Position numbers and translations under genes: made by a program
The notes under the pieces: model-generated
Seen by the model: only the letters and a program-made list of their open reading frames with translations
What the model was told of the DNA's origin: nothing
The model's database searches: none
Source: Marinobacterium profundum
GTDB lineage: Bacteria; Pseudomonadota; Gammaproteobacteria; Pseudomonadales; Balneatricaceae
Assembly (NCBI RefSeq): GCF_001528745.1
Contig: NZ_BCNS01000145.1
Coordinates: 1-64,000, forward strand
DNA length: 64,000 bases
Direction: 5' to 3'
Shown: positions 43,410 to 63,810 of the stretch, one piece after another
Layout: each line of letters begins with the position of its first letter
Position numbering within the stretch: position 1 is the stretch's first letter

Positions 43410-45119
43410 ATGAAATCTGTTGTTTATCGTAGAATCACCCCGCCGTACGTGTTTGCTGCCATTTTGGCTACGGTATCGTCGCTGGCAAGTGCTATCGGCA
43501 TCGAATCCTCCGTGCTTCCCGAGAGTCAGCAGGCCCAGCTGATCCCGGAAAAAATTGATGATCAGGTGAATACCAACTGGCGTACCGGCACCTATGCATC
43601 GCCCGTACAGCCCCTGCCTCCAATGACTGATGGCACCGAAATTCGCCCCTTTGGCGCTGACCTGTTCAGTGGCGGCTTTCGCGGTGTACGTGCCGATGGC
43701 CTGAATTCAACCTACCAGCTGGTGCCTGGCGATCAGATTACACTGCGTATCTGGGGCGCTGTTGAATTCGAACGTGTGCTGCCGGTGGATGCGCAGGGCA
43801 ATATATTCCTTCCAGCCATTGGCCCTGTCATGGTGCAGGGGCTGACTAACGGTGAGCTTAACAGCCGTGTTACCAGGGCAGTACGGTCGGTTTACCCGGA
43901 AAACGTTCAGGTCTATACCAACTTGCAGGGCGTGCAACCGGTGGCCGTGTTTGTCACCGGCTATGTGACGAATCCCGGTCGTTATGCTGGCACCCCCAGT
44001 GATTCACTGCTGTATTTCCTCGACCAGGCCGGCGGTATCGATGCCCAGCTGGGCAGCTACCGCCAGGTTAAGGTATTGCGTGACAAGAAGGTTGTCGCCA
44101 AGGCTGATCTCTATGATTTCCTGCTAAATGGCACTATGGCGCGCTTGCAGTTCCAGGATGGCGATACGGTCGTAGTGGCAGAGCGGGGGCCGGCGGTAAC
44201 AGTCACTGGTGATGTGGAGCGCAGCTATCGCTACGAGCTGGCGAATGACAGCATGAACGGTGCCGCGTTGCTGGATCTTGCGCGCCTCAAGCCGGATGTA
44301 TCCCATGTACTGCTGCGGGGCGGTCGCACGGACGGGCCTATATCGCTGTACTACTCACTGGCAGAATTTCCACAACAGACGCTGACGAATGGCGACGAAG
44401 TGCTGTTCAGTGCCGATCAGCGGGACGAAACCATAGTGGTACAGCTCGAAGGCAGTTACTACGGGCCTTCGCGCTATGCGTTACCCAAGAGCGCTCGCCT
44501 GAATGAATTGCTTGATGCCGTGGCCGTGCCGCGTGAACTGACGGCGGTACACAGCATTTCCTTGCGCAGGCTAAGCGTGGCGGAGCAGCAGAAACAGGCC
44601 TTGCAGGAAAGTCTGCGTCGCCTGGAAACCACCTACCTGGGTGCGCCGTCTGCGACGCCGCAGGAAGCGCAGGTACGGGTGCAGGAAGCCGAGCTGATCA
44701 CTCAGTTCGTTGCCCGTGCGTCCCAGGTCGAGCCCAGTGGCCGCCTGGTGGTGGCGCACAACGACCGTATCACCGATATCCGCCTGCAGGATGGCGATGT
44801 TATTACTCTGCCTGAACTCAGTGACTCCCTGCTCATTAGCGGCGAAATACTGGTGCCGCAGTCGGTGGTCTTTACGCCAGGGCTCTCGGTTAATGACTAT
44901 ATCGAGGCCTCGGGCGGCTATACCCAACACGCGGATGACGACCGTATTCTGGTCGTGCGCCAGAATGGCGAGGTGCGTGATGCCGATGATGTTGAACTGC
45001 GCGCGGGTGATGAAATTCTGGTGTTGCCGGATGTACCGACCAAAAACCTGCAGCTGGCCACCAGTATTTCCCAGATCATCTTTCAGATCGCCGTCGCCGC
45101 CAAAGTTGCACTGGATTGA
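43410..45119 (+). CDS. kpsD: polysaccharide export outer-membrane protein (KpsD-like)
   Basis: A 569-residue exported protein with a signal segment (about 10-28). A poly-export domain (YQLVPGDQITLRIWG, IFLPAIGPVMVQGLT) at about residues 105-185 and SLBB beta-grasp domains (VFVTGYVTNPGRYAGTP, and later LLISGEILVPQSVVF) follow. A coiled coil lies between SLBB units (about 385-425). Size and order match KpsD (about 558 residues), the OPX protein of ABC-dependent capsules. It should form the periplasmic/outer-membrane channel with KpsE. The first of four linked export genes. Confidence 0.88.
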   Translation: MKSVVYRRITPPYVFAAILATVSSLASAIGIESSVLPESQQAQLIPEKIDDQVNTNWRTGTYASPVQPLPPMTDGTEIRPFGADLFSGGFRGVRADGLNSTYQLVPGDQITLRIWGAVEFERVLPVDAQGNIFLPAIGPVMVQGLTNGELNSRVTRAVRSVYPENVQVYTNLQGVQPVAVFVTGYVTNPGRYAGTPSDSLLYFLDQAGGIDAQLGSYRQVKVLRDKKVVAKADLYDFLLNGTMARLQFQDGDTVVVAERGPAVTVTGDVERSYRYELANDSMNGAALLDLARLKPDVSHVLLRGGRTDGPISLYYSLAEFPQQTLTNGDEVLFSADQRDETIVVQLEGSYYGPSRYALPKSARLNELLDAVAVPRELTAVHSISLRRLSVAEQQKQALQESLRRLETTYLGAPSATPQEAQVRVQEAELITQFVARASQVEPSGRLVVAHNDRITDIRLQDGDVITLPELSDSLLISGEILVPQSVVFTPGLSVNDYIEASGGYTQHADDDRILVVRQNGEVRDADDVELRAGDEILVLPDVPTKNLQLATSISQIIFQIAVAAKVALD

Positions 45120-45186: not shown

Positions 45187-45972
45187 TTGAAAACCCGTAC
45201 ACCCTGGCAGGTTACCCGGTCGGTTTGGTACGCGCTCTTTATGCGTGAGGCTGTCGCCCGTACCATGGCCGACCGCATGGCCTGGTTCTGGATGATTGCA
45301 GAGCCGGTAGCAGTTATTGCCATTATGGTCGCTATTCGAAGCGTGGTGTCGGGAGGGCGGCATATAGCTGGAGCTGACTTTGTCCCCTGGCTAATTACGG
45401 GTCTACTTGGGTTTTTCCTGTTTCGCGAGAATATGATGCGATCCTTAGGGGCTGTGGAATCAAACAAGGGGCTTTTCGCATATCGTCAAGTGAAAACTGT
45501 CGATCCAGTGTTGGTGCGCTGTTTCCTTGAAGGTATGCTGAAGACATTTATATTTCTGTTGTTTATTGCTACAGGTATTCTGCTTGATGCAGGGCTGACA
45601 CCTGCCAATCCGATGGCGGCTCTTTTCGATTGGATATCTCTTTGGGTATTAGGGTTAGGGGTTGGCTTGACTTTATCGGCGGCTTCCTCACTTGTGCCAG
45701 AGATAGGGCGACTTGTCCGCATCATAACCTTGCCCTTGCTGATCATCTCCGGTGTCATTATTCCTTTGAATTATCTACCTCACGATTTTCAACAGTATGT
45801 GCTCTGGAATCCTATTGTGCATGGTCTTGAGCATATGAGGGAAAGCTTTTTTCCGGAGTACCGTTCGCTTGATGGTGTAAGTCTTACTTATCTCTGGTTT
45901 TGGGCATTAAGTCTGACATCGCTCGGCTTAATTCTACATCTGCGGTTCGAGATGAGATTGAAAACGCAATGA
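45187..45972 (+). CDS. kpsM: capsule ABC transporter permease (KpsM-like)
   Basis: A 261-residue ABC-2 permease with six predicted helices, opening with FMREAVARTMADRMAWFWMI, the KpsM/BexB start. Other typical parts are FRENMMRS, a re-entrant loop near residue 170 (LVPEIGRLVRIITLPLLIISG) and the final helix near 240. It exports lipid-linked capsule across the inner membrane with KpsT. The start is TTG at 45187, with GGAG ten bases upstream. The stop overlaps the kpsT ATG. Its GC content is lower than that of kpsD. Confidence 0.9.
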   Translation: MKTRTPWQVTRSVWYALFMREAVARTMADRMAWFWMIAEPVAVIAIMVAIRSVVSGGRHIAGADFVPWLITGLLGFFLFRENMMRSLGAVESNKGLFAYRQVKTVDPVLVRCFLEGMLKTFIFLLFIATGILLDAGLTPANPMAALFDWISLWVLGLGVGLTLSAASSLVPEIGRLVRIITLPLLIISGVIIPLNYLPHDFQQYVLWNPIVHGLEHMRESFFPEYRSLDGVSLTYLWFWALSLTSLGLILHLRFEMRLKTQ

Positions 45973-46646
45973 TCCGCATAACCAACCTGTATAAACGTTA
46001 TCATAATCATCATGGTAGCGACTGGGTGTTACGTGATATCAATCTGGAGATTCCAGCCAATGTAAGCGTAGGGCTGGTAGGGCGAAATGGGGCAGGAAAG
46101 TCAACCCTGCTACGCCTGATTGGTGGTATGGATAACCCGGATCGAGGTGCTATCTCGCGTGACTGCAGAGTTTCCTGGCCTATTGGTTTATCGGGCGGGT
46201 TTCAGAGTGCTATGACGGGTAGGCAAAATGTAAAGTTTGTTGCCCGTATTCACGGTGGTGAGCGAAATCTAAGGGAAGTGATAGAGCGGGTCGAGGAGTT
46301 TGCAGAGATTGGCGCTGCTTTTGATGAGCCAGTTAGAACTTACTCTTCAGGTATGCGCGCTCGCTTGGCATTTGGCCTGTCTCTGGCGTTCGATTTTGAC
46401 GTTTATTTGTCTGATGAAGCTACGGCGGTCGGTGATCGGATGTTCAAACTGAAGGCTTCAAAGGCCTTCAGGGATAGAGTGGGAAAATGCAGCCTTATTA
46501 TGGTGTCCCACAGTGAGGGAATACTCCGGGAGTTATGTCAGGCTGGTATCTGGCTCCACCAGGGAAACGCTATCTGGTTTGATGATATCAATGATGCTAT
46601 CAATGCATATCACGGTAGTTCTGGCGCTGGAACCAAGACTAAATAA
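45969..46646 (+). CDS. kpsT: capsule ABC transporter ATP-binding protein (KpsT-like)
   Basis: A 225-residue ATPase of the ABC-2 polysaccharide family. Walker A is GRNGAGKSTLLRL near residue 45. The signature YSSGMRARLAFGLSLAF and Walker B FDVYLSDEATAVGD are those of KpsT. HSEGILRELC is the switch region. Starting at the ATG overlapping the kpsM stop gives the usual 220-residue length; the frame is open further upstream inside kpsM. Confidence 0.92.
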   Translation: MIRITNLYKRYHNHHGSDWVLRDINLEIPANVSVGLVGRNGAGKSTLLRLIGGMDNPDRGAISRDCRVSWPIGLSGGFQSAMTGRQNVKFVARIHGGERNLREVIERVEEFAEIGAAFDEPVRTYSSGMRARLAFGLSLAFDFDVYLSDEATAVGDRMFKLKASKAFRDRVGKCSLIMVSHSEGILRELCQAGIWLHQGNAIWFDDINDAINAYHGSSGAGTKTK

Positions 46647-46683: not shown

Positions 46684-47799
46684 ATGGTGCTTAAGGATAG
46701 TGAGTCCGAGATGAAGCAGTTCTTCCGTCAATACCCCTACTGGTTTGTTTGTGCCATTTCCATTTTAGTAGTGACAGTCTATTGGAGTCTATGGGCAAGT
46801 GATCGTTATGTTTCGGAAAGTAACGTCGTTCTGGAAAGTCCACAGATTGCGGCGCCGACACTTAGCTTTTCTTCTTTGCTAAGTGGTGGAGGCGCAACAA
46901 GTGGCGATATGCTACTGCTGCGTGACTATCTTCTTTCTGTTGATATGCTGCGTTATATAGACAGTGAGTTGGGCTTTCGCGAGCATTATTCCAGCACTGA
47001 ATTCGATATATTTTCCCGTCTCTTCGACAAGAATGCGCCTATCGAGGATCTGCATGAGTACTATCTAAAACGGGTTTCGGTTGAGCTCGACGATTACGCA
47101 CAGGTACTGCGTATCAGGGTCCAGGCATTCAGCCCTGAAATGGCCCATGCGATTACCTCTTTGCTGCTGAGCAAGGGTGAAGCCCATATGAATGCCATGG
47201 GGCAACGGCTGGCCGAAGAGCAGGTGCGTTTTCTGGAAGGCCAAGTGAGCCAGCTGAGCGAAAGCTTCAATGCGACCCGCCAGTCTCTGCTTGATTACCA
47301 GAACAAGAATGGCCTGGTGTCACCTACAGGAACAGTGGAAAGCCTCAGCGTTGTCGTAGCCAATCTTGAGGCACAGCTCGCCAACCTTAAAGCGAAGCGC
47401 ACTGTATTGGCGAGTTATCAGAGCAGGCGCTCGCCCGAAGTACTGCGTGTGGGTAGTGAAATTGATGCCCTTAATCAGCAGATAAAACAGGAGCGCGCGC
47501 GTATGGCGCAGCAGTCTGGCGGTGCTCTGAACGTTATGTCATCAGAATATCAAACGCTGGAGCTGAGGGCTCAGTTTGCCCAGGACAGTTACTCCGGTGC
47601 ACTGGCAGCGCTGGAGAACACCCGAATTGAAGCCGCGCGCAAGCTTAAACAAGTTTCTGTTTTGCAGAGCCCGACATTGCCCGAATATCCAGTAGAGCCT
47701 CGCCGTCTCTATAACATAATAGTTTTCGCTATTATTACGCTTTTTTTGGTCCTGATACTACAAATGTTGGTGCTCATCGTAAAAGATCATCGAGACTGA
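46684..47799 (+). CDS. kpsE: capsule export inner-membrane protein (KpsE-like, PCP family)
   Basis: A 371-residue polysaccharide co-polymerase-like protein. Two membrane helices lie near the ends (about 20-38 YWFVCAISILVVTVYWSL, and 342-362 NIIVFAIITLFLVLILQML). A long periplasmic coiled coil (about 170-320, EEQVRFLEGQVSQLSESF) separates them. LLRDYLLSVDML and the C-terminal VKDHRD match KpsE/BexC. It links KpsMT to KpsD. Start is uncertain: ATG at 46684 has no ribosome-binding site and ATG at 46711 (MKQFFRQY) only a weak one; both give the same mature protein. Confidence 0.87.
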   Translation: MVLKDSESEMKQFFRQYPYWFVCAISILVVTVYWSLWASDRYVSESNVVLESPQIAAPTLSFSSLLSGGGATSGDMLLLRDYLLSVDMLRYIDSELGFREHYSSTEFDIFSRLFDKNAPIEDLHEYYLKRVSVELDDYAQVLRIRVQAFSPEMAHAITSLLLSKGEAHMNAMGQRLAEEQVRFLEGQVSQLSESFNATRQSLLDYQNKNGLVSPTGTVESLSVVVANLEAQLANLKAKRTVLASYQSRRSPEVLRVGSEIDALNQQIKQERARMAQQSGGALNVMSSEYQTLELRAQFAQDSYSGALAALENTRIEAARKLKQVSVLQSPTLPEYPVEPRRLYNIIVFAIITLFLVLILQMLVLIVKDHRD

Positions 47800-48437: not shown

Positions 48438-48447
48438 GAAAATTATG

Positions 48448-49566
48448 ATGAAAGTATTGACAGTATTTGGGACGCGTCCGGAAGCTATTAAAATGGCGCC
48501 GCTGGCGCTGCAGCTGGCTATGGATGAACGCTTCGAGGCGAAAGTCTGTGTAACCGCGCAACACCGGGAGATGCTGGACCAGGTGCTCGGTCTGTTTGAA
48601 TTGAAGCCAGACTTTGATCTGAACCTTATGAAGCCGGGGCAGGACCTCACCGATGTCACTACCGGTATTCTACATGGCCTGAAAGGCGTATTTGCCGAGT
48701 ACAAACCAGATATCGTACTGGTGCATGGCGATACTGCCACAACATTTGCTACTACGCTGGCGGCCTACTATCAACAGATTCCGGTTGGGCATGTGGAGGC
48801 GGGATTGCGCACCGGCAATATCTATTCTCCTTGGCCGGAAGAGGGTAATCGCAAGTTGACTGGCGCGTTGGCCAATATCCATTTTGCCCCGACGGCGACG
48901 TCCCGCTCGAACTTGCTGAAAGAGGGAATCAGCGAAGCGCACATCCATGTGACCGGCAATACGGTGATCGATGCGTTGCTGGAGGTCGTGCGAAAGCTGG
49001 ACAAGAAACCAGAGCTTGCGATAGCGCAGCGCCAGCAGTTCGGTTTTCTCGACGATGATAAAAAGATGGTGCTGGTAACCGGGCACCGTCGCGAGAGTTT
49101 TGGTGGCGGTTTCGAGCGCATCTGCCAGGCACTGGCCAAAACAGCCGAGGCGCACCCGGATGTACAGATTGTTTATCCGGTCCACCTCAATCCAAATGTA
49201 CAGGAACCGGTTAAGCGGTTACTGGCGGCGCACGACAACATCCACTTGATCGCCCCGCAGGACTACCTGCCTTTCGTCTACCTGATGAACCGCGCCCATA
49301 TCATCCTGACCGATTCCGGCGGCATCCAGGAGGAAGCGCCCTCCCTTGGCAAACCGGTACTGGTCATGCGCGACACCACCGAGCGGCCTGAGGCGATAGA
49401 GGCCGGCACGGTAAAGTTGGTAGGAACGGATGTCGCAACTATTATCCGGGAGCTGAATACGCTTCTGACCGATCAGGATGCCTACAACGCCATGAGCTAT
49501 GCACATAACCCCTACGGCGATGGGGAAGCCTGCCAGCGCATCCGCGATACTCTTGCCGCTCTCTGA
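48448..49566 (+). CDS. wecB: UDP-N-acetylglucosamine 2-epimerase
   Basis: A 372-residue non-hydrolysing epimerase converting UDP-GlcNAc to UDP-ManNAc. Motifs are [68 protein letters not shown] and [19 protein letters not shown]. All catalytic-region segments are intact and length is normal. A preceding ATG (48445) gives one more residue. It is paired with wecC, 21 bp downstream, to make UDP-ManNAcA. Confidence 0.95.
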
Positions 49567-49587
49567 TTTTGATTTAAGGACTTTATG

Positions 49588-50865
49588 ATGAATTTTGAAA
49601 CCATTTCTGTAATCGGCCTGGGTTACATTGGTCTGCCAACTGCTGCTGTCTTCGCCTCGCGCAAGAAAAAGGTCATCGGCGTTGATGTCAATCAGCACGC
49701 TGTCGATACCATCAATAAGGGCGAGATACATATAGTCGAGCCAGAGCTTGATATTGTCGTACATGCGGCCGTTACTGAGGGCTATCTGCGGGCCACTACC
49801 AAGCCGGAGCCCGCTGATGCCTTTCTGGTGGCGGTGCCTACGCCTTTCATCCATGATGCAACTGGCGGTACTCATAAGGCTGATTTGAGTTACATCAAAT
49901 CCGCCAGCGAGTCTCTCGCATCGGTGCTGAAGAAAGGCGACCTGGTGGTTCTGGAATCAACCAGTCCCGTTGGCGCAACGGAGCAGATGGCGCAGTGGCT
50001 GGCCCAGGCGCGCCCGGACCTGACCTTTCCGCAGACGCACGGTGAAGCATCCGATATTCGCATTGCCCATTGCCCGGAACGCGTGCTCCCGGGCCATGTA
50101 GTGCGTGAGCTGGTGGAAAACGACAGGGTCATCGGTGGTATGACCCCGAAGTGTTCGGAAGCAGCAAAGGCGGTTTACAAGATCTTCGTACAGGGCGAGT
50201 GCGTCATTACTAATGCCCGTACAGCGGAAATGGCAAAACTCACGGAAAACAGCTCCCGAGATGTCAGTATCGCCTTCGCAAACGAGCTTTCGGTTATCTG
50301 CGCCAAGCTTGATATCAATGTATGGGAGTTGATCGCGCTGGCCAACCGTCATCCGCGCGTCAATATTCTGCAGCCGGGTGCTGGTGTCGGTGGGCACTGT
50401 ATTGCTGTTGACCCCTGGTTTATCGTGGATTCCTGCCCCGAAGAGGCACGCCTGATCCGCACTGCCCGCGAAGTCAATGATGGCAAGCCGCTATGGGTGT
50501 TGGAGCAGGTGAGGGCTAAGCTAGAAGCCTATCACCAGGGGCACCCGGGTGCGACCCGCGCCGATATCACAGTGGCCTGCCTGGGCATTGCCTTTAAGCC
50601 TGATATTGATGATCTGCGCGAGAGCCCGGCGCTGGGAATCGCCGAGGCGGTTGCCGAACTGGGGTGTCAGGTACAGGTCGTCGAGCCCAATATTGAAGCC
50701 CTGCCGAAGCGGCTGCAAGGTGGGAATGTAGCTCTGGTTAGCTTCGATGAAGCCCTGACTCAGGCTGATGTCATTTGTGTGCTGGTTAAACACAAGCCGT
50801 TTATCGAGCAGGCTGACGCAGTGCGCCAGAAAGCCAGTGTCGTCGATGCCGTGGGTCTACTTTAA
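49588..50865 (+). CDS. wecC: UDP-N-acetyl-D-mannosamine dehydrogenase
   Basis: A 425-residue UDP-sugar dehydrogenase: NAD-binding GLGYIGLPTAAVFASRKK, STSPVGATEQMAQWL, ENSSRDVSIAFANELS with the catalytic Asn/Lys neighbourhood, and the active-site Cys in GVGGHCIAVDPWF. The ManNAc-specific WecC group is recognised by GGTHKADLSYI and the C-terminal DDLRESPALGIA. It oxidises UDP-ManNAc to UDP-ManNAcA, giving the uronic acid probably built into this capsule. It ends the nucleotide-sugar pair. Confidence 0.93.
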   Translation: MNFETISVIGLGYIGLPTAAVFASRKKKVIGVDVNQHAVDTINKGEIHIVEPELDIVVHAAVTEGYLRATTKPEPADAFLVAVPTPFIHDATGGTHKADLSYIKSASESLASVLKKGDLVVLESTSPVGATEQMAQWLAQARPDLTFPQTHGEASDIRIAHCPERVLPGHVVRELVENDRVIGGMTPKCSEAAKAVYKIFVQGECVITNARTAEMAKLTENSSRDVSIAFANELSVICAKLDINVWELIALANRHPRVNILQPGAGVGGHCIAVDPWFIVDSCPEEARLIRTAREVNDGKPLWVLEQVRAKLEAYHQGHPGATRADITVACLGIAFKPDIDDLRESPALGIAEAVAELGCQVQVVEPNIEALPKRLQGGNVALVSFDEALTQADVICVLVKHKPFIEQADAVRQKASVVDAVGLL

Positions 50866-54000: not shown

Positions 54001-56300
54001 CCTGGAAGGGCAACGAGGGGCAGTGGCACCGTAAGGTGGGCTACTACAGTGATGAAGAGTTCGCTGATCTCAAGGTATTGTTGTCGCACTGTCGCAACGA
54101 CGGCATACCCACGCTGTTCTGGAACAAGGAAGACCCGGTTCACTTTGACCGCTTCCGCAAAGCTGCGAGCCTGTGTGATCACGTCTTTACGACCGATAGT
54201 CGCCGGATTATTCCCTATCTGTCCACGCCGGATGCCGTCACTCGAACGGTCAGCGGTTGTCCTTTCTATGCGTCGCCCAAGATCCACAACCTGTTGCCTT
54301 CAACACGGGCATGGCAGCCAACTGCGGCCTATGGTGGCACTTACTACGGCGAACGCTACCCGGAACGTACCGAGTACATGGACAAGATCATGAGTGCGGC
54401 TGCGCCCTTAGGCTTGACCATCTACGACCGCCAGCACGGCGACTCGGAATCCCCCTACAAATACCCAGGCGGTCTAGGCGGCTATGTCGCCGGCAGCCTC
54501 AGTTACGAAGAGATGATCCAGGCCTACAAGGCCCACCCTGTGCAGATCAACGTCAACTCGGTACTCGACTCCCCCACCATGTTCTCACGCCGGGTGATGG
54601 AAGCGGCGGCCTGTGGCTCGCCGATCATCTCTGGCCCGGCTCTGGGCATGAACCGCTATCTGGAAGGGGCAGGCCAGGTGGTACAGACCGAAAGCGAAGC
54701 GGCTCAGGTGCTGGAAAACCTGCAGCACCATCCCGCCTACCGCTGGCGCCTGGCCCTGAAAGGGGCGCGGGCGGTGATGCGTGCGCATACAACCGGGTTC
54801 CGCCTCGCCCAGATGCTCAGGACCGCCGGTATGGTAATTAAGGCACCGGAACTACACAGCATTCTGCTGTACACCCTGGAGCTTACCGAAACCGCAGCTG
54901 ATCGACTGTTGGCACAGACTGTAAAACCGGCAAGTGTGGTTTGTGAGCGCTGCCGGCCTGCCGACAGAGCCAAACTGGAAGCTGCTGGCATAGGGTGCCA
55001 ATCGCCAGAACAGATTGTTCTGAATTCCAGCCAGCAAGTGCTGCTTGCCACCCCAGGAGCCTTGGAAAACCTGGAGCCTGAGGATATTGAGGACCTGGCC
55101 TGGGCAGCCAGTTATGCGCCTCAGAATCGCATCGGATTTGTACATGATACTGTAGTGGCAGAAAACCAGTGGCCGGGCGTAGCACTGGAAAGCAAGCAGA
55201 TTGATATAGGCCTGCAGCTGCTGCACGATATTCAGCCACAGCGCCTGCAGGAGCTCACCAGCTGGGCCGAGCAACAGCCGACGCTGGCTTTGAGAAAACC
55301 GCCTCGAGCCTATGAACAGGCGCCCAATATAGCACCGAAGAAAACAGTGGTAATTGCCGGGCACGACCTCAAGTTCATCAAGCCGTTCTATCCTTACTTT
55401 ACCCAAGAGGGTAATCGAATCCTGCTTGATTTCTGGAATGGCCATAATCAGCATAACGAAACCGCCAGTCAGCGGCTGGTGGAGCAGGCCGACACAGTGT
55501 TCTGTGAATGGATGTTGGGCAATGCCATCTGGTACGGCAAGCACAAGCGAAAAGGCCAGAAGTTGGTAGGGCGGCTACACGCCCAGGAGTTGCGCAGTGC
55601 ACTGTTTGACAAGGTGCCGTTCGAACAGTTTGAAACGGTACTTTTTGTCGGCCCTCACATGCTGCGCCAGGGCGTTGCCAAGAATCCGATACTGAAGAAG
55701 AACGGCAGCGTGGTGTACAACGGCGTGGATGTTGAAGGGCTGCAAGCCGTGCCGCGCAAACCCACTAATGAGAAGGTGCTCGGCATGGTGGGAATTGTGC
55801 CGCAGAGTAAGCGGCTGGATCGCGCTTTGGACATTCTCAAGGAGTTGCGCAAGGAAGATGGCGATTACACCCTGCGCATCAAAGGCAAGCGACCGGAAGA
55901 TTATCCCTGGATGGCCAACCGCCCCGAGGAAATGGCCTGGTACGAGCAGCAGTACAGCCGGCTGGAAGAAGACCTGCTGTTGAAAGGTGCCGTCATTTTC
56001 GATCCCCACGGTAACGATATGCCGGAGTGGTATGCCGGCATCGATTATGTGCTCTCGACCAGTGACTTTGAAAGCTTCCACTTTACCATTGCCGATGGCG
56101 CCGCGGCAGGCTGTACGCCGGTCATATTGCCTTGGGAAGGTGCGGATGAGATCTATCCGAAAGAGTGGGTCTACCCTGATATCAAAGTCGCTGCGAAGGG
56201 CATAAAAGCCGGGTCTGGTGATCGGCTTAGAATAAAAGAATTTGCCAAGTCAAAATTTGATATTAACGTCACTTTCGATTATTTTATAAAACTTATCTAG
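51093..56300 (+). CDS. giant multidomain glycosyltransferase (about four GT modules)
   Basis: A 1735-residue cytosolic protein. Module 1 (about 25-395) and module 2 (about 505-915) are GT4-like: each has an N-terminal NGYxxRT/SHGIA opening, FYNEVRGFWELS or FVYEVRGLWEVT, and VLGYVGSFNPYEGLDTL or VIGYAGSTVAYEGLELL. Module 3 (about 920-1245) resembles CgeB/GT1 proteins (DSPTMFSRRVMEAAACGSPI). A short, degenerate GT2-like segment (about 1250-1390) links to module 4 (about 1415-1735), with VVYNGVDVEGL and a late FESFHFTIADGAAAGCTPVI, a GT4-type nucleotide site. It probably builds the polymer repeat. The frame is unbroken throughout. Confidence 0.82.
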   Translation: MDTLIYQATELAGQPSTPISPIEGRIAYVVSHGASYASNGYAVRTQGVAQALNGHGFETLCFVRPGRPWELGARKGSTRPEMTVKGVRYIHSRWPHDRAPKDESEHLEASVERFIELFRVYRPAVVVAASNYIVGLPAWVAAKRLGLPFYNEVRGFWELSRAAREPVFEKMAAFKQETERDTFVAKQAPKVFTLNHPMKEELIRRGVDASRIDIMPNGVNELPDIKPADPALKVSLGIEAGDKVLGYVGSFNPYEGLDTLIEACADLVKQGEPIKLLLVGDDQPVTTATGSVTKLGEQPWLIQVGRVPHEQVSDYYALIDLVVIPRKKLPVCELVPPMKAVEALSFQKAVVVSDIAPLAEFAKHYSQISTFKADNTQSLAASLKDCLGKAKKTQSNLAELSFSCAVTPLAKGLGAPIQQSMPVAPLRAGKAAKVDLDKCDYQTASQLFYKEGNLNETLQILNHLLQKKVKFDKAQRDFHEFVKGLARLQGGWQLPPRQPNAGLLTRRKQLLYCLHQSVPHTTNGYSTRSHGIATGLQHAGWKVSASTRTGFPWDSNIKVAGKGYHLEQVDGVTYTAAAGWSLSKTPLDRYLAEAADHFLREAQTCGAEVIVAASNHITALPALMAARRLGLPFVYEVRGLWEVTQASTQPEWMDSDRYHLMKALEAHTAREADLVITLTEELADELVQRGTQRERIKVVPNAVDATRFTPRPAAPEILKQLNLKAGVPVIGYAGSTVAYEGLELLLEALAELKKAGISFYFVLVGDGKVIDTVKAKAKELKIEEACRFTGRIPFDQVPHYLACMDIMPIPRLSSAVTEMVSPLKPLEAMAMGKAVVLSDVSPHAVFAGNNERGRLFSKDNLASLRDTLKELIASPEERERLGKAARAWIEQERTWNRVTDNYSRAIDELLANRQPIAADKNLQQITLGLIADQFTTDTLRSAVKVVRLSPDNWRQELQHQPIDALFVESAWKGNEGQWHRKVGYYSDEEFADLKVLLSHCRNDGIPTLFWNKEDPVHFDRFRKAASLCDHVFTTDSRRIIPYLSTPDAVTRTVSGCPFYASPKIHNLLPSTRAWQPTAAYGGTYYGERYPERTEYMDKIMSAAAPLGLTIYDRQHGDSESPYKYPGGLGGYVAGSLSYEEMIQAYKAHPVQINVNSVLDSPTMFSRRVMEAAACGSPIISGPALGMNRYLEGAGQVVQTESEAAQVLENLQHHPAYRWRLALKGARAVMRAHTTGFRLAQMLRTAGMVIKAPELHSILLYTLELTETAADRLLAQTVKPASVVCERCRPADRAKLEAAGIGCQSPEQIVLNSSQQVLLATPGALENLEPEDIEDLAWAASYAPQNRIGFVHDTVVAENQWPGVALESKQIDIGLQLLHDIQPQRLQELTSWAEQQPTLALRKPPRAYEQAPNIAPKKTVVIAGHDLKFIKPFYPYFTQEGNRILLDFWNGHNQHNETASQRLVEQADTVFCEWMLGNAIWYGKHKRKGQKLVGRLHAQELRSALFDKVPFEQFETVLFVGPHMLRQGVAKNPILKKNGSVVYNGVDVEGLQAVPRKPTNEKVLGMVGIVPQSKRLDRALDILKELRKEDGDYTLRIKGKRPEDYPWMANRPEEMAWYEQQYSRLEEDLLLKGAVIFDPHGNDMPEWYAGIDYVLSTSDFESFHFTIADGAAAGCTPVILPWEGADEIYPKEWVYPDIKVAAKGIKAGSGDRLRIKEFAKSKFDINVTFDYFIKLI

Positions 56301-56318: not shown

Positions 56319-57008
56319 ATGGATACGCAAAGAATTGAAATTGAGGTGAGCGGTCGAAATTTTGTTTTTTACTTCACGCCTGCTCAGGATAAAGATAAGC
56401 CTATATTGTTTATATTTCACGGGCATGGCTATTCATCAACGCCATCGGGTTTTAAAAGCCCTAATTGGAATGTTGTGTGTCCAATGGATAATTATGGCTA
56501 CGAAGGGCTGGGGTCTTGGTATCTAGGAGAAAGTGGAGATCTATTTTGGGTGGATGCTATGGCAGAGATCCTACGTTATGTAAGAGAGTATGCAGGCAAT
56601 GGCAGGCTTTATATGTGGGGCTCTAGTATGGGCGGCTATGCCAGTATTCTCTACGGGCACCTGTTAGGGGCTCGTGCGATATATGCTAATGTTCCTCAGA
56701 CCCTGCTTTTGGGGTCCAAGTACTCTTGTAATGGAATGTTTAAGTTTTTTTCCCCTATCTTCAATGGAAACGAACAGAGTGAGTATAATGATTTAAAGAA
56801 AATTTTGATTCTAAGAACGTCATGCAAATATTTTTTATGCTTCAACCAGCTTGAAGGATCAAACTATTTATCTGAACAAGGTCTTGATTTTATAACTCAT
56901 TTGCATTCGTTCAAACAGCCCATGTATGTAGAAATTAGGCCTCAGTCCGCTCATGGGAAAAATCATGGTGTGAGTGAGGCTATTTCGTTATTTAAGAAAT
57001 ATAACTAA
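56319..57008 (+). CDS. alpha/beta hydrolase-like protein of the capsule locus
   Basis: A 229-residue protein with an alpha/beta-hydrolase core: ILFIFHGHGYSS (oxyanion-loop HG), the nucleophile elbow MWGSSMGGYASIL (Ser near residue 111) and a possible catalytic His in AHGKNHG near the C-terminus. No signal peptide is seen. Similar Gly-Ser-Ser-Met-Gly-Gly proteins occur in capsule and secretion loci as esterases or acyltransferase partners. With the acetyltransferase encoded downstream it could set polymer O-acetylation; that is an inference. It starts the AT-rich part of the locus. Confidence 0.6.
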   Translation: MDTQRIEIEVSGRNFVFYFTPAQDKDKPILFIFHGHGYSSTPSGFKSPNWNVVCPMDNYGYEGLGSWYLGESGDLFWVDAMAEILRYVREYAGNGRLYMWGSSMGGYASILYGHLLGARAIYANVPQTLLLGSKYSCNGMFKFFSPIFNGNEQSEYNDLKKILILRTSCKYFLCFNQLEGSNYLSEQGLDFITHLHSFKQPMYVEIRPQSAHGKNHGVSEAISLFKKYN

Positions 57009-57039: not shown

Positions 57040-58071
57040 ATGAAGTTATATCTGCATATCGGAATGCCAAAGTCGGCATCAAGTACAATTCAAAATTTCA
57101 TTTATGAATCTAGAAATGAACTGTCCGTAAGGGATTTTTTGATACCTGATTTTTTAGGAAAGAAAAATCATAGGATGATTTTTAGTTTTCTGAAAGGTAA
57201 GTTTGGTGAGTATGATGCAGGAATATATTTAAGAAATGCAAAAGACGGAAATGAAAAAAATAAAATAATATCTCGAGTTGAAGCGAATATTAAAAAATTT
57301 CTTGAAGCTGGGCAGGATTATAATAAAGTAATTATTTCATGTGAGCAGTTGGCATCGCTGGGTCAGAGGGAAATACAATACCTTTATGATTTCATTAGCC
57401 CATATTTTTCATCCATTTCAGTGATAGTTTATTTTCGTCGTCAGGATCTAATGGCTGTTAGTGGATATAATACTCAAGTTATATCAGGGCGCTATAAGTT
57501 GTTTCATGACTCGTTTTCTTTTTCAAGTACACCAACTCCGGCTTTTTTATATGATAAAATTTTGCAGAAATGGTCTAATGTTTTCGGAGAGTCAGTTATA
57601 AAAGTAAGAACTCTAGATCCCGAATATACGATTTCTGGCAATGTTATTTCAGATTTTCAAGATGCTATTGGGGTTAGTTTTCCTGTATCCAAAAGTGCTG
57701 AGACGAAAGAAAACTCTTCATTATCAGCAGCGACACTCGAGTTTGTGCGTTGTCTAAATGAAAGACTTTCTAAAGAAAATTTGGACTTGTATAAGCAAGC
57801 TGGTATATCAGGTATAACTCAGCCTTATGCTAAAAAGGCAAAACAATTGCATGCAAGATTCTATCCGGGGCGAGAGAGTGCCGAAAGGTTTTATGGGCTG
57901 TTTGATCAAAGTAATCGTATGGTAGCGAATAAATGGCTTGGTAGGAATGATTTGTTTTCTGGTGATTTTAGTATGTATCCAGAAGAAACAATAGCTCCTA
58001 CAGACGCTGAAGTGAAAGATGCAGCTATTGAATTCTTGGTAGCATTGCTTACTTCTGGTGACAGGGACTGA
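57040..58071 (+). CDS. sulfotransferase-like protein
   Basis: A 343-residue protein with the 5'-phosphosulfate-binding loop at its very N-terminus: LYLHIGMPKSASSTIQNF. VIVYFRRQDLMAVSGYNTQV, about residue 130, fits the second (3'-phosphate, Arg...Ser) motif of PAPS sulfotransferases. The same loop, HVGYPKSASTALQ, opens the fused enzyme encoded at 59605. Predicted role: transfer sulfate from PAPS to the capsule or its precursor in the cytoplasm. It is AT-rich and lacks close spacing to the hydrolase gene (31 bp). Confidence 0.75.
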   Translation: MKLYLHIGMPKSASSTIQNFIYESRNELSVRDFLIPDFLGKKNHRMIFSFLKGKFGEYDAGIYLRNAKDGNEKNKIISRVEANIKKFLEAGQDYNKVIISCEQLASLGQREIQYLYDFISPYFSSISVIVYFRRQDLMAVSGYNTQVISGRYKLFHDSFSFSSTPTPAFLYDKILQKWSNVFGESVIKVRTLDPEYTISGNVISDFQDAIGVSFPVSKSAETKENSSLSAATLEFVRCLNERLSKENLDLYKQAGISGITQPYAKKAKQLHARFYPGRESAERFYGLFDQSNRMVANKWLGRNDLFSGDFSMYPEETIAPTDAEVKDAAIEFLVALLTSGDRD

Positions 58072-58077
58072 ATTGAT

Positions 58078-58704
58078 ATGTCGAAAAATGAAAATTCTGT
58101 TGAAAAGATAATCTCCATTTTCGGTGATTTACTGGATTCTCCATTACCGTCAGTAACGGATATATGGGAGGTAGCACAAGCTAAATTGAATAGCGGGGAT
58201 TTAAAAGAGGCGAATAAATGTTATCAGCTAAATCACTTGTTACATAATTCACATGTGCCAAATTCTTCGAAAATTGGAAAAGGTGTAAAGTTTGCTTATG
58301 GTGGTATAGGATTGATTATCCATAACGACTGTGAAATACGAGATTATGCGGTAATTGGTTCCAATGTGACGATTGGTGGGCGGGCTAGATCAAAGTATAG
58401 AATATCAGAAGATGGCAAAAGAGTTTATGTGCCCTTGATTGATAAGTACGCTTATGTCGCAACCGGTGCTGTAATTTTAGGAGGTGTGACAATAGGAAGT
58501 ATGAGTATTGTTGGAGCTAACGCTGTTGTAATACAGGATGTCCCGCATTTATCGATTGTGGCAGGTAGTCCTTCAAAAATTATTGGTAAAATAACTGTCG
58601 ATAATTGCTTAAGTTATAAGAGTACCTTTTCTATTTTTAGAAATGTATCTGATGGAGCGTATGTAGATATCGTCAAGTCTATCGAACAGTCTAAGTCATT
58701 ATAG
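58078..58704 (+). CDS. hexapeptide-repeat acetyltransferase (CysE-like)
   Basis: A 208-residue left-handed beta-helix acyltransferase. Hexapeptide-type turns begin near residue 60 (NSSKIGKGVKFAYGGIGLII) and continue through IGSNVTIGG, VILGGVTIGSMSIVGANAVV and end SIVAGSPSKIIGK. An N-terminal helical part (about 1-60) recalls the serine O-acetyltransferase fold, but a Ser-acetylating role is only one possibility; in a capsule locus it more likely acetylates a sugar or precursor. It overlaps no gene: 6 bp after the sulfotransferase stop, then a 210-bp gap. Confidence 0.75.
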   Translation: MSKNENSVEKIISIFGDLLDSPLPSVTDIWEVAQAKLNSGDLKEANKCYQLNHLLHNSHVPNSSKIGKGVKFAYGGIGLIIHNDCEIRDYAVIGSNVTIGGRARSKYRISEDGKRVYVPLIDKYAYVATGAVILGGVTIGSMSIVGANAVVIQDVPHLSIVAGSPSKIIGKITVDNCLSYKSTFSIFRNVSDGAYVDIVKSIEQSKSL

Positions 58705-58914: not shown

Positions 58915-59583
58915 TTGGTACTGTTAAAAGATAATTTTATTTTCTTGAAGCCTAGAAAAGTTGCTGGCACGTCTTTTGAGATTGCTCTTAGTCGCTATGC
59001 TGGTAATAATGATATTGTCACTCCGGTATCCCCAAATGACGAGGAGCTTAGGAAAGCGTTGGGATTCACTTCGCCTCGAAACTTTATGGATGAAAAAGGC
59101 CAGGTAGTATTTAGAAACCACATTTCTGCAGCTGAAGCAAGGAAGAAACTTGGCAGCGGGGCGTGGAATTCGTTGAAAAAAGTTTCAATTGTTCGAAATC
59201 CTTTTGATGTGTATGTCTCTTTGTTCTTTTATCACAACGGACCGGCTGCGGATATTTCGAGGCTTTCTGAGTGGTATATCGGAGGTGAGGGGGAGGCATA
59301 CCTAGGTGTCAATCACAAGCAATATTACATAGCTGAGCGACTCGTTGTTGATAATTTTATAAGATATGAAAAATTGAAAGAAGGTATATTGTCTTTAGAG
59401 GATTTTTTTCCAAAACTGAAGGGATTGTATAATTCTTTCAGCTCAATTAAGGCCAAATCAGGGATTAGAAGTCCTGAGTCTTATGATCTGATTGATATTT
59501 ACTCAAGGCATGTTTGTCTTAAGAAAAAAATTGAAAGTGTGCATAGGTTTGAAATAAATGAGTTTGGTTACTCATTGGGATGA
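58915..59583 (+). CDS. sulfotransferase family protein
   Basis: A 222-residue protein with the P-loop-like 5'-PSB motif FIFLKPRKVAGTSFEIAL and a 3'-PB-like motif VSIVRNPFDVYVSLFFYH. The pattern (KVAGTS and RNPFDVYVS) fits the Sulfotransfer_2-type family rather than the LHIGMPKSAS type next to it. The start is TTG at 58915, with GGGAAT a little upstream; the ATG choice is poor because the PSB motif lies at residue 9. It may sulfate a different position from its neighbours. Very AT-rich. Confidence 0.7.
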   Translation: MVLLKDNFIFLKPRKVAGTSFEIALSRYAGNNDIVTPVSPNDEELRKALGFTSPRNFMDEKGQVVFRNHISAAEARKKLGSGAWNSLKKVSIVRNPFDVYVSLFFYHNGPAADISRLSEWYIGGEGEAYLGVNHKQYYIAERLVVDNFIRYEKLKEGILSLEDFFPKLKGLYNSFSSIKAKSGIRSPESYDLIDIYSRHVCLKKKIESVHRFEINEFGYSLG

Positions 59584-59604: not shown

Positions 59605-62289
59605 GTGTTTAAATACCGCTTTCTGATTCATGTTGGGTACCCAAAGTCGGCATCAACAGCTCTTCAAGATACATTGTTTCACTATAGGTGTCTGTTGAAG
59701 AAAAATGGAGTGCTTTACCCAGAAGTACTAATGATAGGAGAGTCTACCAAGCACGAGGAGCTATTTCGTCTTTTACGTTTAAATCGTGTTGATCAAGCCT
59801 TGAAAGTGCTCAAGAAAGAGCTTGCTCAGCATGATAATATTCATACGATTATTCTATCAACAGAATCTATTGTTAATCAGCTATACCATATTGAAGAGTC
59901 CCGTTGGGTAGAGTTTTTTGAGAAAATTAAGCTGCTTGGCTCCTTGGAATTACTCTTGATTAAGCGTGATTCGAAAGGTTTCTTTAAATCCTACTATAAA
60001 CAGGCAGTCGTGAATCAGTTATCACCGCTGATGAGTATTTACTCGACGCCACTTACTCTTCTCGACTTTGCTGAGTTAACCTCTGTACGTCAGTTAGTTG
60101 ATGTGGATGCTGTTGTAAATAAACTAGAAAAGGTTTCGGACTCATCTGTTCGAGTGTTTGACTTTGGTTCTAGAGTTGTAGAAGGCATTTTAAACTGGCT
60201 AGTCCAAGAAAAGCTTCCAATAGAGGTGCCTCAGATTAGTAATGTTAGCCTTCAGCCTGAAGAGGTAGAGTTGATTCGGCAGTTAAACACTATGAGGCTG
60301 GAAACTAAAGTACGAAATGCTTGGTTTCGTTTGTTAACAAAATCTCGCTGTCTTGGTAGTAGCACTGCTCTTAATTTGGCTGGCCGGTCTAAAGATGAAG
60401 ATATGCTAGTGTTGAATCCTGAGTTTTTGTTGAAAGTTCAGCCGGGAAGAAATAAAGCCTTGGATGTGGATGATGAAAAGTTAAGTTTGCTTGCTTCCGA
60501 TGTTTATCAATTACTATGCGACTTTCAGCGTGGATGTGCACCTTTCTACTCACTCGAAAATAAGAAACAGGTATTCATGATATTAAGATCAGATGACTCG
60601 TTTGAATTAAAATATTGCGTTCATAAGCGACTTGAACAGCTATTGTCTGCTTCGAATAATATATTGCTGGGAGAGAATCTTTTTGAAAATAAGAAGTTAG
60701 AACTTGCTCCTTTTGAGGCTGTGAACCATTCTGGTTGGGATAGCTGGGAGCAGGATCCGCTTAATAATCGCAGCTGGCAGTGGAGGCTGAATTGGTTCTC
60801 TTTTCTACCGTATTTGCTGGCGCACCATCGGGCAGTTCGTAATGATGAAGTACTGGGTTTTGGTTGTGAGGCCATACAATCCTGGTTAGATAAGTACCTA
60901 CAAACAGATACCACCTACCCTTTTGAGTTTATTTGGCACGACCATGCCACTGCACTACGTGCAGAGCAGTTGATACTGTTTGTTTTTTACTGTCGGTATT
61001 ATGCGCCCGAGTGGGCCGAGCTGCATGCCAAGTTTCTCCAATATATGGAGAATGCATTGGTGGTACATGGACAGTGGCTAGCTAAGGACAGCTTCTATTC
61101 CGAACACACTAACCATGGTCTGGAACAGGCCAGAGTGCTTCTGTTGCTGGGAACAGTTTTTGACGGTGTGCAGGCTGGTGAGTGGCGGCAAAAAGCCATT
61201 CGCCGCATCAGTAGTGAACTGAACTTTTCGTTTACCAGGGAGGGGGTCCACGTCGAGAATAGTCCCGCTTATCATATCTTTGTGTTTAAGGTCTTTATTG
61301 GCATATTAAAAGATTATCCGGCTAACTTGCTGGGTGATCTCGCTGAACAGTTTGAGCACTTTTCTACTAAAGCGTTGGGCTTTATAACGCATATCCTGCG
61401 TCCTGATGGCCTTTTGCCGCCCATTGGCGATACTGAGCAGTTGCCTACATCGGACGCCTACCGGGATATGTTCGGAGATACGCCGGAGTATCGGTATTTT
61501 CTTTACGCCCTGACTCAGGGACAGGAGGGAACAATACCACCTGCTTTAAATCGCGTGTATCCCCAGTCTGGCTATGCTGTTTTCCGTGATCGCTGGCCCT
61601 CCAAAGGAGACTTCAGTAATGCCTTCCATCTGATCACCAAGGTGGGATGTTCAAGTCGTTACCATCACCAGCAGGATGAAGGTCATATCAGTCTGTATGC
61701 CGGAGGAGAAGATTGGTTGATCGACTCGGGACTCTATAATTACGTGAATAACGACCCTGTAAGAAAATATATGAGAAGTCGGTTGGCACATAATGTTCCA
61801 ATAATAGAAAACACGCGCTACTCAGAAAGTTTTGAGAATAGGTTGGCTTCATGGAAGGTGTTGTCCTCAAGTGAAGATGAACATAAACCTTATGTTTCCA
61901 TGCAAATTGGCGTCTTGGATGGCATTTCTCAAGTAAGAAAGGTGCTTTTTGATAAGGCGGCCACTTCACTTCAAGTTGTTGATACAATTCAGTCGGATGA
62001 TATTTTTGAGAGGAATTATACATTGCTTTGGCATGTGCCTAGTGATAAAAAGATAAATATTGACGATGGGTTGATTTCTATTTCGGCTCAGGACGGAAAA
62101 AGAATGGAGATTTCTTTTAGAGGAGATGCTCCGGATAATATTTCGTTCGCTACCGGTATAAGAAAAGATCGTGTATTAAGCTGTATCTCTTATAAAGCCA
62201 ATAGTTATGAAAGTAGTCAGATTATAAGGGTTCTTTTTAAAAAGCGTTTAGGGCTTCATGTTCATAGCGAATTTAATTTTGTTTTTTAG
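59605..62289 (+). CDS. sulfotransferase - heparinase II/III fusion protein
   Basis: An 894-residue protein, GTG start. The N-terminal part (about 1-300) is a sulfotransferase: FLIHVGYPKSASTALQDTLF at residues 6-25 and LELLLIKRDSKGFFKSYYKQ near 115. The C-terminal part (about 365-894) has the heparinase II/III layout: a helical toroid with EHTNHGLEQARVLLL (Asn near 502) and HVENSPAYHIFVFK (Tyr near 555), then a beta domain with SSRYHHQQDEGHISLYAGG (His near 690) and DSGLYNY. These fit the Asn/Tyr/His catalytic set of such lyases. No signal peptide is visible, so both domains would work in the cytoplasm. Confidence 0.82.
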   Translation: MFKYRFLIHVGYPKSASTALQDTLFHYRCLLKKNGVLYPEVLMIGESTKHEELFRLLRLNRVDQALKVLKKELAQHDNIHTIILSTESIVNQLYHIEESRWVEFFEKIKLLGSLELLLIKRDSKGFFKSYYKQAVVNQLSPLMSIYSTPLTLLDFAELTSVRQLVDVDAVVNKLEKVSDSSVRVFDFGSRVVEGILNWLVQEKLPIEVPQISNVSLQPEEVELIRQLNTMRLETKVRNAWFRLLTKSRCLGSSTALNLAGRSKDEDMLVLNPEFLLKVQPGRNKALDVDDEKLSLLASDVYQLLCDFQRGCAPFYSLENKKQVFMILRSDDSFELKYCVHKRLEQLLSASNNILLGENLFENKKLELAPFEAVNHSGWDSWEQDPLNNRSWQWRLNWFSFLPYLLAHHRAVRNDEVLGFGCEAIQSWLDKYLQTDTTYPFEFIWHDHATALRAEQLILFVFYCRYYAPEWAELHAKFLQYMENALVVHGQWLAKDSFYSEHTNHGLEQARVLLLLGTVFDGVQAGEWRQKAIRRISSELNFSFTREGVHVENSPAYHIFVFKVFIGILKDYPANLLGDLAEQFEHFSTKALGFITHILRPDGLLPPIGDTEQLPTSDAYRDMFGDTPEYRYFLYALTQGQEGTIPPALNRVYPQSGYAVFRDRWPSKGDFSNAFHLITKVGCSSRYHHQQDEGHISLYAGGEDWLIDSGLYNYVNNDPVRKYMRSRLAHNVPIIENTRYSESFENRLASWKVLSSSEDEHKPYVSMQIGVLDGISQVRKVLFDKAATSLQVVDTIQSDDIFERNYTLLWHVPSDKKINIDDGLISISAQDGKRMEISFRGDAPDNISFATGIRKDRVLSCISYKANSYESSQIIRVLFKKRLGLHVHSEFNFVF

Positions 62290-62457
62290 GCTAATATTTT
62301 TTTAAGTTCTTGAAATACATGACATCTGCTGCAAAGCTGGCGCTACTTCTAGTAGCCTTTCCGGTTGATAGGAGCATGTGTGGCGTGCTTGGGCTTTTCG
62401 AAATATTTAGTTGTTTTGGTGTAAAAGTTCCGTTAAAAGACTTTCAGGGTGAACTGT

Positions 62458-63810
62458 ATGCAATCCAAGTTTTTTGGCACTGATGGTATTCGTGGCCGCG
62501 TCGGTGAATTTCCGATGACGCCGGAATTCGTCATGAAATTGGGCTGGGCGGCCGGCAAGGTACTGGGCGCGGATGGAACCAGCGAGGTACTGATCGGCAA
62601 GGATACCCGCGCCAGCGGTTATATGCTGGAATCGGCCTTCGAGGCGGGATTGTCCGCGGCGGGTGTCGGTATCGCTCTGGTCGGACCATTGCCCACACCG
62701 GCTGTCGCCTATCTGGCGTCGACCTTTCGGGCGAATGCGGGGGTGGTGATCAGCGCTTCGCACAATCCTTATTATGACAACGGCATCAAATTCTTTTCCG
62801 GCCAGGGAGCCAAGATCAGCGACGAGCAGCAGCAGGCTATCGAGGCGCTGTTGCAACAGGCGCTGGCGAATGGTATCGACTGTGTGCCCTCGGAGCAGCT
62901 GGGCAAGGCGCGGCGTATCGAGGATGCTGCCGGGCGCTATATCGAGTACTGCAAGGGTACCTTCCCCGCTGGCCTTAGCCTGCGTGGGCTTAAGATCGTC
63001 GTCGACAGCGCTAATGGCGCCGCCTACAAGGTGGCCGCTAAAGTCTACGAAGAGCTCGGCGCTAAAGTTATCAGCATTCACGACCAGCCCGATGGCATGA
63101 ATATTAATGCGGGCTGTGGAGCGACCGACTTAAAGAGCCTTGTGGAGGCGGTGGTTGCGCAGGGGGCGGATGTCGGCATTGCACTTGATGGCGACGCGGA
63201 TCGGATCATGATGGTCGATGCCCTTGGAGAAGTTGTCGACGGCGACCAGATTCTGTACCTGCTGGCAAAGGATGCCCGCGCCCAGGGCTATACCGGCGGT
63301 GTGGTGGGGACTCAGATGTCGAATCTCGGCCTCGAGCTTGCGCTAAAGGAACTGGGCGTGGAGTTTTTACGTGCGAAGGTCGGCGACCGCTATGTCAGCG
63401 AACAGCTGCGAGAGTCGGGATGGCGCCTGGGCGGTGAAAATTCTGGTCATATCCTGCTGCTCGACCACGGTTCCACCGGGGATGCCATTATTGCTTCGCT
63501 GCAGGTACTAAAGCTGATGTCCACCGAGTCCCCACCCCTGCCTTTGCACGCCTTGACCGGAAAAATGCAGCGCTATCCGCAAACGCTGATCAATGTTGGT
63601 TATTCGCTTGTGAGCGGCTCAGATCCGTTGGGTCAGCCACAGGTCCAGACGACCTTGCAGCAGATTGAAACTGAGCTGGCGAGCATCGGGCGGGTACTGC
63701 TGCGCAAGTCGGGTACCGAGCCGTTGATTCGTGTTATGGTCGAGGCCGTCGACGCCGCAGTAGCGCGGCAGGCGGCTGTGCGTCTCGCGGCCGTAATCGA
63801 GCAAATCTGA
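62458..63810 (+). CDS. glmM: phosphoglucosamine mutase
   Basis: A 450-residue alpha-D-phosphohexomutase converting glucosamine-6-phosphate to glucosamine-1-phosphate. Motifs are [18 protein letters not shown], the phospho-Ser loop [19 protein letters not shown], the metal site LDGDADR, the sugar-specificity loop GGENSGHIL and the phosphate-binding [14 protein letters not shown] is high again, unlike the preceding 6 kb, so this is back in host-like DNA. It supplies the UDP-GlcNAc that WecB and WecC use. I prefer the ATG at 62458 over the upstream GTG at 62449. Confidence 0.93.

Follow-up and report, generated by a model that had tools for sequence, protein, structure and literature searches.

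A protein joining sulfotransferase-like and heparinase II/III-type domains in a probable sulfated capsule locus of Marinobacterium profundum

The capsule genes in a stretch of Marinobacterium profundum DNA (positions 1 to 64,000 of contig NZ_BCNS01000145.1, assembly GCF_001528745.1; the whole 64,000 nucleotides are referred to as the window) include one whose product joins an N-terminal sulfotransferase-like domain to a module of the heparinase II/III type (Hepar_II_III; the Hepar module). The locus raises the question of what this module does to a uronic acid-containing chain and why it should be joined to sulfation. Sequence comparison establishes the fusion, the fold class and catalytic residues of the Hepar module, the type of locus, and the presence of genes for 3'-phosphoadenosine-5'-phosphosulfate (PAPS) synthesis. 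Sequence comparison and reasoning from known enzymes make C5-epimerisation coupled to sulfation the tentatively preferred answer (probability about 0.45), ahead of the length-control or editing lyase proposed in a first-pass annotation of this DNA.

Domains and conserved residues of the fused protein

The single 894-residue chain described in the first-pass annotation is confirmed. At the local base composition, the chance of an open frame of 894 codons is ~1.5e-25, and the other five frames each contain 41–94 stop codons over positions 59605–62289. A pattern-based scan of one genome per species gave 12 loci, which is a lower bound. Three of these (L006, L007 and L008) encode other two-domain proteins of the kind the annotation proposed to look for, covering residues 3–892 or 4–892 with 58–59% identity over the best segment. 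They belong to Chromohalobacter moromii, Vreelandella titanicae and Halomonas campaniensis, and because three Halomonadaceae encode a full-length version, the fusion is a natural protein and not an assembly join. Including the M. profundum genome, it is known from four species. The ratio of nonsynonymous to synonymous substitution rates (dN/dS) between L007 and L008, the one informative pair (synonymous sites are saturated in most others), is 0.153/0.756 (~0.20) for residues 1–310 and 0.098/1.264 (~0.08) for residues 331–894; by this comparison both halves are under purifying selection. The full-length relatives, these ratios and the frame statistics together rule out a frameshift or assembly join as the source of the fusion. 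The guanine plus cytosine (GC) content of the gene is 39.6% and 36.6% at the ends and 48.3% in the catalytic core.

The module with Asn, Tyr and His segments that the annotation had recognised is likewise present, with both Pfam domains above cut-off (Table 1). The nearest relative of residues 368–844 is heparinase III (HepC) of polysaccharide lyase family 12 (PL12), in which Asn240 is the neutraliser and Tyr294 and His424 serve as base and acid (PMC12088678). Sequence alignment to 4MMH, with numbering equal to chain position plus 24 throughout, places N503, Y556 and H687 at these positions, and all 20 aligned modules (11 from alignment A1 and nine others) retain these residues as well as H504. 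Thus, the residues for abstraction of a C5 proton are in place.

An AlphaFold2 (AF2) model of the full-length protein, built with 11 sequences, has a mean predicted local distance difference test score (pLDDT) of 73 and a predicted template modelling (TM) score, pTM, of 0.51. Foldseek placed heparinase III/HepC at the top (4mmi, E 1.8e-19), followed by lyases of families PL15, PL33 and PL17, and the toroid and β-sheet fold is thereby borne out. The root-mean-square deviations of the fold alignments are 7–13 Å overall and 9–13 Å to heparinase III chains, and the TM-scores for 4fnv are 0.49/0.64. Profile searches matched the PL12 lyases 5jmd, 4mmh and 4fnv, and PDB sequence searches found heparinase III, all other matches having E >0.5. 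The protein therefore resembles heparinase III in its domains, its best fold match and its Asn240, Tyr294 and His424 equivalents, but differs in an identity of only 15–17% in the fold alignments, in falling far below the NCBIfam equivalog cut-offs for HepC (73.6 bits vs 700 and 60.5 vs 600), in an N-terminus that is not signal-like, in its location in a biosynthetic locus and in its sulfotransferase-like domain; it is known here from its sequence.

The N-terminal half, assigned by the annotation to the PAPS sulfotransferases, is very probably a divergent member of this group. The Pfam search that had been proposed found Hepar_II_III but, with residues 1–322 alone, returned no families and no sulfotransferase model above cut-off; the assignment stands on the family profile and on invariant residues. 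A profile of 13 relatives searched against solved structures matched the sulfotransferase 3rnl best (E 3.6e-5) and also 5x2b (4.4e-4), and 24 of the 26 matches at E ≤10 are sulfotransferases. Sulfotransfer_1 is matched at E ≤1 by six of the 13 relatives (best E 2.7e-7). H9, G11, K14, Q21, S85, E87, R121 and S129 are invariant in all 13. The HVGYPKSAST loop is taken to be a PAPS-type phosphate-binding loop like that of sulfotransferase families; R121 and S129, with their spacing of eight, presumably act as in the sulfotransferase 3'-phosphate site, and E87 is a candidate catalytic base.

Neither a phage nor a plasmid origin of this domain was upheld: there was no phage match, and 24 viral-contig stretches fitted the pattern with none confirmed, while plasmid matches were partial, none of the 14 records reaching 80% coverage. 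The same type of domain stands beside glycosyltransferase domains in L017 (GT2) and in L077 (Capsule_synth and GT2). The L077 gene (L077:2228-6004, minus strand) encodes a 1258-aa protein in which Capsule_synth and GT2 are accompanied by a C-terminal region with the same sulfotransferase-like loop.

Epimerisation or cleavage

Cleavage, which the annotation had read from the Hepar module, does not follow from its residues. The C5-epimerase DS-epi1 (dermatan sulfate epimerase 1) has the heparinase fold, and all its catalytic residues are common to heparinase II (PMC8006597). Because the two enzymes share them, catalytic residues cannot separate a lyase from an epimerase, and a decision on this ground was ruled out.

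Coupling of epimerisation to sulfation is tentatively favoured by an N-terminus that is not signal-like, by the parallels with dermatan epimerases and by the C5 inversion suggested for a Vibrio polysaccharide, taken together. The annotation had noted the lack of a signal peptide, and a crude hydropathy test, the sole basis of this call, agrees: the maximum 12-residue hydropathy is 0.68 for the fused protein and 0.24–1.44 for seven standalone members, against 2.2 for the KpsD-like control. Hence, action on the chain in the cytoplasm, before export, is expected. In human DS-epi2 (DSEL), likewise an enzyme of sulfated glycan synthesis, a single chain carries a heparinase-fold epimerase and, at its C-terminus, a domain predicted to be a sulfotransferase (PMC8006597, PMC9957132), and 4-O-sulfation has been proposed to lock the reversible epimerisation in dermatan sulfate (PMC9957132). 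In Vibrio polysaccharide (VPS), N-acetyl-L-gulosaminuronic acid (L-GulNAcA) is suggested to come from N-acetyl-D-mannosaminuronic acid (D-ManNAcA) by C5 inversion; the passages on this residue leave the enzyme unnamed and sulfate unmentioned (PMC3901696).

In the proposed mechanism, the large (1735-aa) glycosyltransferase would build a polymer expected, from WecB and WecC, to include D-ManNAcA, and the fused protein would be a cytoplasmic bifunctional enzyme tailoring it. The Hepar module would bind the nascent chain, with Asn503 and His504 neutralising the uronate carboxylate, and Tyr556 and His687 would take off and return the C5 proton, so that C5 is inverted and D-ManNAcA converted to L-GulNAcA. 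The N-terminal domain would move sulfate from PAPS, made by the nearby CysDNC proteins, onto this residue or one adjacent to it. Sulfation would lock the otherwise reversible epimerisation, as proposed for dermatan sulfate, and the finished chain would be exported through KpsMTED. A broader proposal, possible but held with less assurance, is that the protein is a bacterial DS-epi2 counterpart, a single cytoplasmic enzyme that both sulfates an N-acetylhexosaminuronic acid capsule polymer and converts its D-ManNAcA to L-GulNAcA by C5-epimerisation, with the module as a reusable uronate-handling platform to which sulfotransferase, methyltransferase or hydrolase domains are joined in related capsule loci.

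Several points weigh against this coupling. No DS-epi chain was found among the PDB sequence or profile matches of the Hepar module, nor among the 50 best of 607 fold matches, a set that takes in every one of the 36 with E ≤0.001; the closely related solved structures that were found belong to lyases. The pLDDT falls below 50 at residues 546–552, 607–615 and 682–690, around the expected active site, and the full-length model, of middling quality overall, is therefore uninformative on proton geometry. For DS-epi2, no sulfotransferase activity was seen with the substrates tried, and the complex with D4ST-1 is formed by DSE, not DSEL (PMC9957132). Seven of the 11 A1 members have no fused sulfotransferase, so one-chain coupling is not required, and a Hepar gene is detectable in only two of five distant loci with WecBC and the glycosyltransferase. 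To our knowledge, the characterised bacterial Hepar_II_III members are lyases, and we know of no bacterial epimerase among them.

The strongest alternative, plausible but on the whole doubtful, is a lyase for editing or length control. It would carry out β-elimination of the uronate chain in the cytoplasm, for trimming, release or quality control, with the sulfotransferase capping or protecting finished stretches. Both the closeness of the PL12 lyases and the complete Asn/Tyr/His set in every aligned module are consistent with it. The biosynthetic loci of other uronate polymers also include lyases, AlgL and VexL among them, but these are periplasmic, whereas the N-termini of the fused protein and of the standalone Hepar proteins are not signal-like by hydropathy. 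Moreover, fusions to methyltransferase, hydrolase-like and sulfotransferase-like domains would fit a modifying step better than degradation, and L014 has three Hepar-type genes in tandem.

That the N-terminal domain is another P-loop enzyme and not a sulfotransferase, which would be compatible with any of the other explanations, is unlikely. The lack of a Pfam match for residues 1–322 alone and a weak NCBIfam match of residues 60–139 to adenylyl-sulfate (APS) kinase (E 0.029) would suit it. So would the Foldseek search with the domain model (AF2 pLDDT 82), which gave no match at E ≤0.001 and ranked epsilon/zeta-toxin chains (1.2e-3) above 3rnl (E 3.6e-3, rank 4, TM 0.37/0.46). Sulfotransferases nevertheless dominate and head the profile matches, K14, R121 and S129 are invariant, six relatives match Sulfotransfer_1, and PAPS genes are nearby. 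A catalytically silent scaffold that binds the polymer and presents it to decorators is very unlikely, since fusion of the module or its relatives to several unrelated decorators would fit such a role but all 20 aligned modules retain the catalytic Asn, His, Tyr and His and the dN/dS of the Hepar half is below that of the sulfotransferase half between L007 and L008.

Relatives, domain partners and comparable systems

Eight of the 12 loci (L009–L016) have the Hepar module alone, starting at residues 315–330, L016 apparently being a fragment, and L017 matches the N-terminus only. L018 (G087) was not counted as independent, its module being identical to that of L010 over the compared columns and the two loci probably belonging to one genome. 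A full-length match was found only in the M. profundum genome itself among seven genomes of the genus, 116 of the family and 390 sampled from the order, and some match to either half in 2/7, 10/116 and 38/390, respectively, with at most two candidates scored per genome in the order search. In a class sample of 369, searched with a profile that represents chiefly the Hepar part, the near-complete match was again confined to this genome, and weaker ones were present in five others. As for a single origin of the fusion, the module tree leaves the window copy unplaced; the fused group needs two changes, and 2% of bootstrap trees contain a branch that separates it from the remaining members.

The Hepar module has a C-terminal FkbM methyltransferase in L011 (by Pfam) and L014 (by alignment). 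In L070 (the same protein as in L019), a Hepar module detected by Pfam is preceded, at the N-terminus, by a region with 40% identity to the hydrolase-like protein encoded at 56319 in the window. DUF6270 is joined to another kind of Hepar-type domain in L009 (33.9 bits, exceeding the cut-off) and in L014 (22.4 bits, slightly below it). C-terminal extensions of ~170–200 aa occur in L007, L008, L012, L013 and L015; the two scanned with Pfam, from L007 and L012, gave no match. As relatives of the module stand alone or join FkbM, hydrolase-like or sulfotransferase-like domains, it appears to be a fixed unit that acts on the polymer and is combined with interchangeable decorators. The three consecutive genes in L014 (L014:8336-16223) encode the DUF6270-Hepar fusion, the Hepar-FkbM fusion and a close paralogue. 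Elsewhere in the M. profundum genome, on contig C18, L057:9440-13783 holds two other Hepar-type genes among sugar-kinase and oxidoreductase-like genes; judging from these neighbours they probably serve alginate catabolism, unlike the capsule copy.

The large glycosyltransferase has a match in 11 of 11 loci L006–L016 (only 36% in L016), a link biased by the choice of these loci through the Hepar module. In the reverse test, its C-module was found at 39–45% identity in five other genomes of the order sample, with a Hepar gene directly behind it in L065 and L066; L064, L067 and L068 have no frame of ≥120 aa matching the Hepar module by blastp, and the five proteins scanned there have no Hepar match. 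CysNC is encoded in five of the 11 loci (L006, L007, L008, L012 and L013), that is, in or near all four fused loci when the M. profundum copy ~15 kb away is included, and in the flanks of two of seven unfused ones (L012 and L013).

DSEL differs from the fused protein in its C-terminal sulfotransferase domain, which matches PF00685, and in being a Golgi membrane protein; the fused protein has no sequence match to DS-epi in the PDB sequence or profile searches. The annotation's statement that it knew of no described protein is thus valid, at most, with respect to the order of the domains. Each of the two parts, like the type of cluster, is already known, and animals have the same pairing with the domains the other way round; no description of a bacterial protein fusing sulfotransferase and heparinase was found among the matches listed in literature searches. 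The sulfated capsule cluster of Cobetia marina KMM 1449 is similar in having kpsETMD, kpsSC, cysDNC/Q, sulfate permease and sulfotransferase genes, but directs a Rha/Man repeat with dTDP-Rha and GDP-Man as precursors, and the main text of the paper has no word starting with 'lyase' (PMC11766843).

Lyase is the usual annotation of Hepar_II_III proteins. If the members of this biosynthetic group are epimerases, such annotations in capsule and exopolysaccharide loci of this kind would be wrong, there would be a candidate enzyme for L-GulNAcA-type residues, and it would become possible to test where the animal dermatan epimerases came from. The latter are structurally close to bacterial lyases, the direction of transfer being left open (PMC8006597). 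A soluble enzyme with epimerase and sulfotransferase in one chain would also be of use in the production of mimics of sulfated glycosaminoglycans. A lyase, in turn, would edit a sulfated capsule in the cytoplasm, which would be unusual.

The surrounding probable capsule locus

The glycan context read by the annotation, a ManNAcA polymer acted on before export, is supported insofar as the locus has WecB and WecC. With KpsM/T/E/D, KpsC and PAPS genes present, the locus probably directs a sulfated, ABC-transporter-dependent capsule primed with 3-deoxy-D-manno-oct-2-ulosonic acid (Kdo). Kps names are given by similarity, several matches lying below NCBIfam cut-offs (Table 1).

Table 1. Coordinates of the fused gene, its domains and motifs, and neighbouring genes in the window
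Feature	Position	Strand	Basis or remark
Poly_export/SLBB (KpsD-like) export protein	43410..45119	+	Pfam/similarity
KpsM-like ABC transporter membrane protein	45187..45972	+	NCBIfam KpsM 127.8 bits, below cut-off 300
KpsT-like ABC transporter ATPase	45900..46646	+	similarity
KpsE/BexC/CtrB-like export protein	46684..47799	+	E 1.1e-87, below curated cut-off
WecB, UDP-GlcNAc 2-epimerase	48445..49566	+	
WecC-like UDP-sugar dehydrogenase	49585..50865	+	UDP-ManNAcA expected from pairing with WecB
Multi-module glycosyltransferase, 1735 aa	51093..56300	+	match in every Hepar locus compared
α/β-Hydrolase-like protein	56319..57008	+	Pfam 24.2 bits, cut-off 25.8; relative fused to Hepar module in L070
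Second sulfotransferase-like protein	57040..58071	+	same PK loop; no Pfam sulfotransferase match of its own
Hexapeptide acyltransferase	58078..58704	+	
Third sulfotransferase-like protein	58915..59583	+	Pfam below cut-off; homologues in L007, L008
Fused sulfotransferase-like/Hepar_II_III protein	59605..62289	+	894 aa, GTG start, TAG stop, uninterrupted
PAPS-sulfotransferase-like domain, residues 1–310	59605..60534	+	profile match to sulfotransferases; AF2 pLDDT 82; weak Foldseek match to 3rnl
HVGYPKSAST loop, residues 9–18	59629..59658	+	K14 invariant; PAPS-type phosphate-binding loop (presumed)
S85-T-E87	59857..59865	+	S and E invariant; 13-relative alignment
R121-x7-S129	59965..59991	+	3'-phosphate-binding-type motif (presumed)
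Variable linker, residues 311–330	60535..60594	+	window copy 25% identical to each of L006–L008
Hepar_II_III_N, α/α toroid, residues 368–618	60706..61458	+	Pfam E 1.1e-18, 68.1 bits vs cut-off 22
N503-H504	61111..61116	+	N503 aligned with heparinase III Asn240 (carboxylate neutraliser)
Y556	61270..61272	+	aligned with heparinase III Tyr294
Hepar_II_III_C, β-sheet domain, residues 650–844	61552..62136	+	Pfam E 2.6e-17, 63.6 bits vs cut-off 24
H687	61663..61665	+	aligned with heparinase III His424
Phosphoglucomutase-family protein	62449..63810	+	named GlmM from its similarity and position; borders the variable segment on the right

Beyond the window, the same contig encodes a Capsule_synth (KpsC-like) protein, an anion/sulfate symporter-like protein, CysD, CysNC, an inositol-monophosphatase-family (CysQ-like) protein and a protein with the sequence HIPKTAGTS that has no Pfam match at E ≤1e-4. 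The only APS kinase detected in the genome lies ~15 kb from the fusion gene. The GC content of the 56–62.5 kb segment is 31–49% per 500 bases in a window of 55.5%, which suggests an exchangeable cassette.

The 1735-aa chain encoded at 51093–56300 is possibly a one-chain capsule synthase, and its parts are split over two proteins in L064, L065, L066 and L067. CysD lies in a single 595-aa frame (L055:13625-15412; contig C145, ~75.6–77.4 kb) with a weak HTH_29 match, possibly a regulator-CysD fusion or a sequencing join; in L007, a separate 261-aa protein with the sequence KHLSPE directly precedes CysD.

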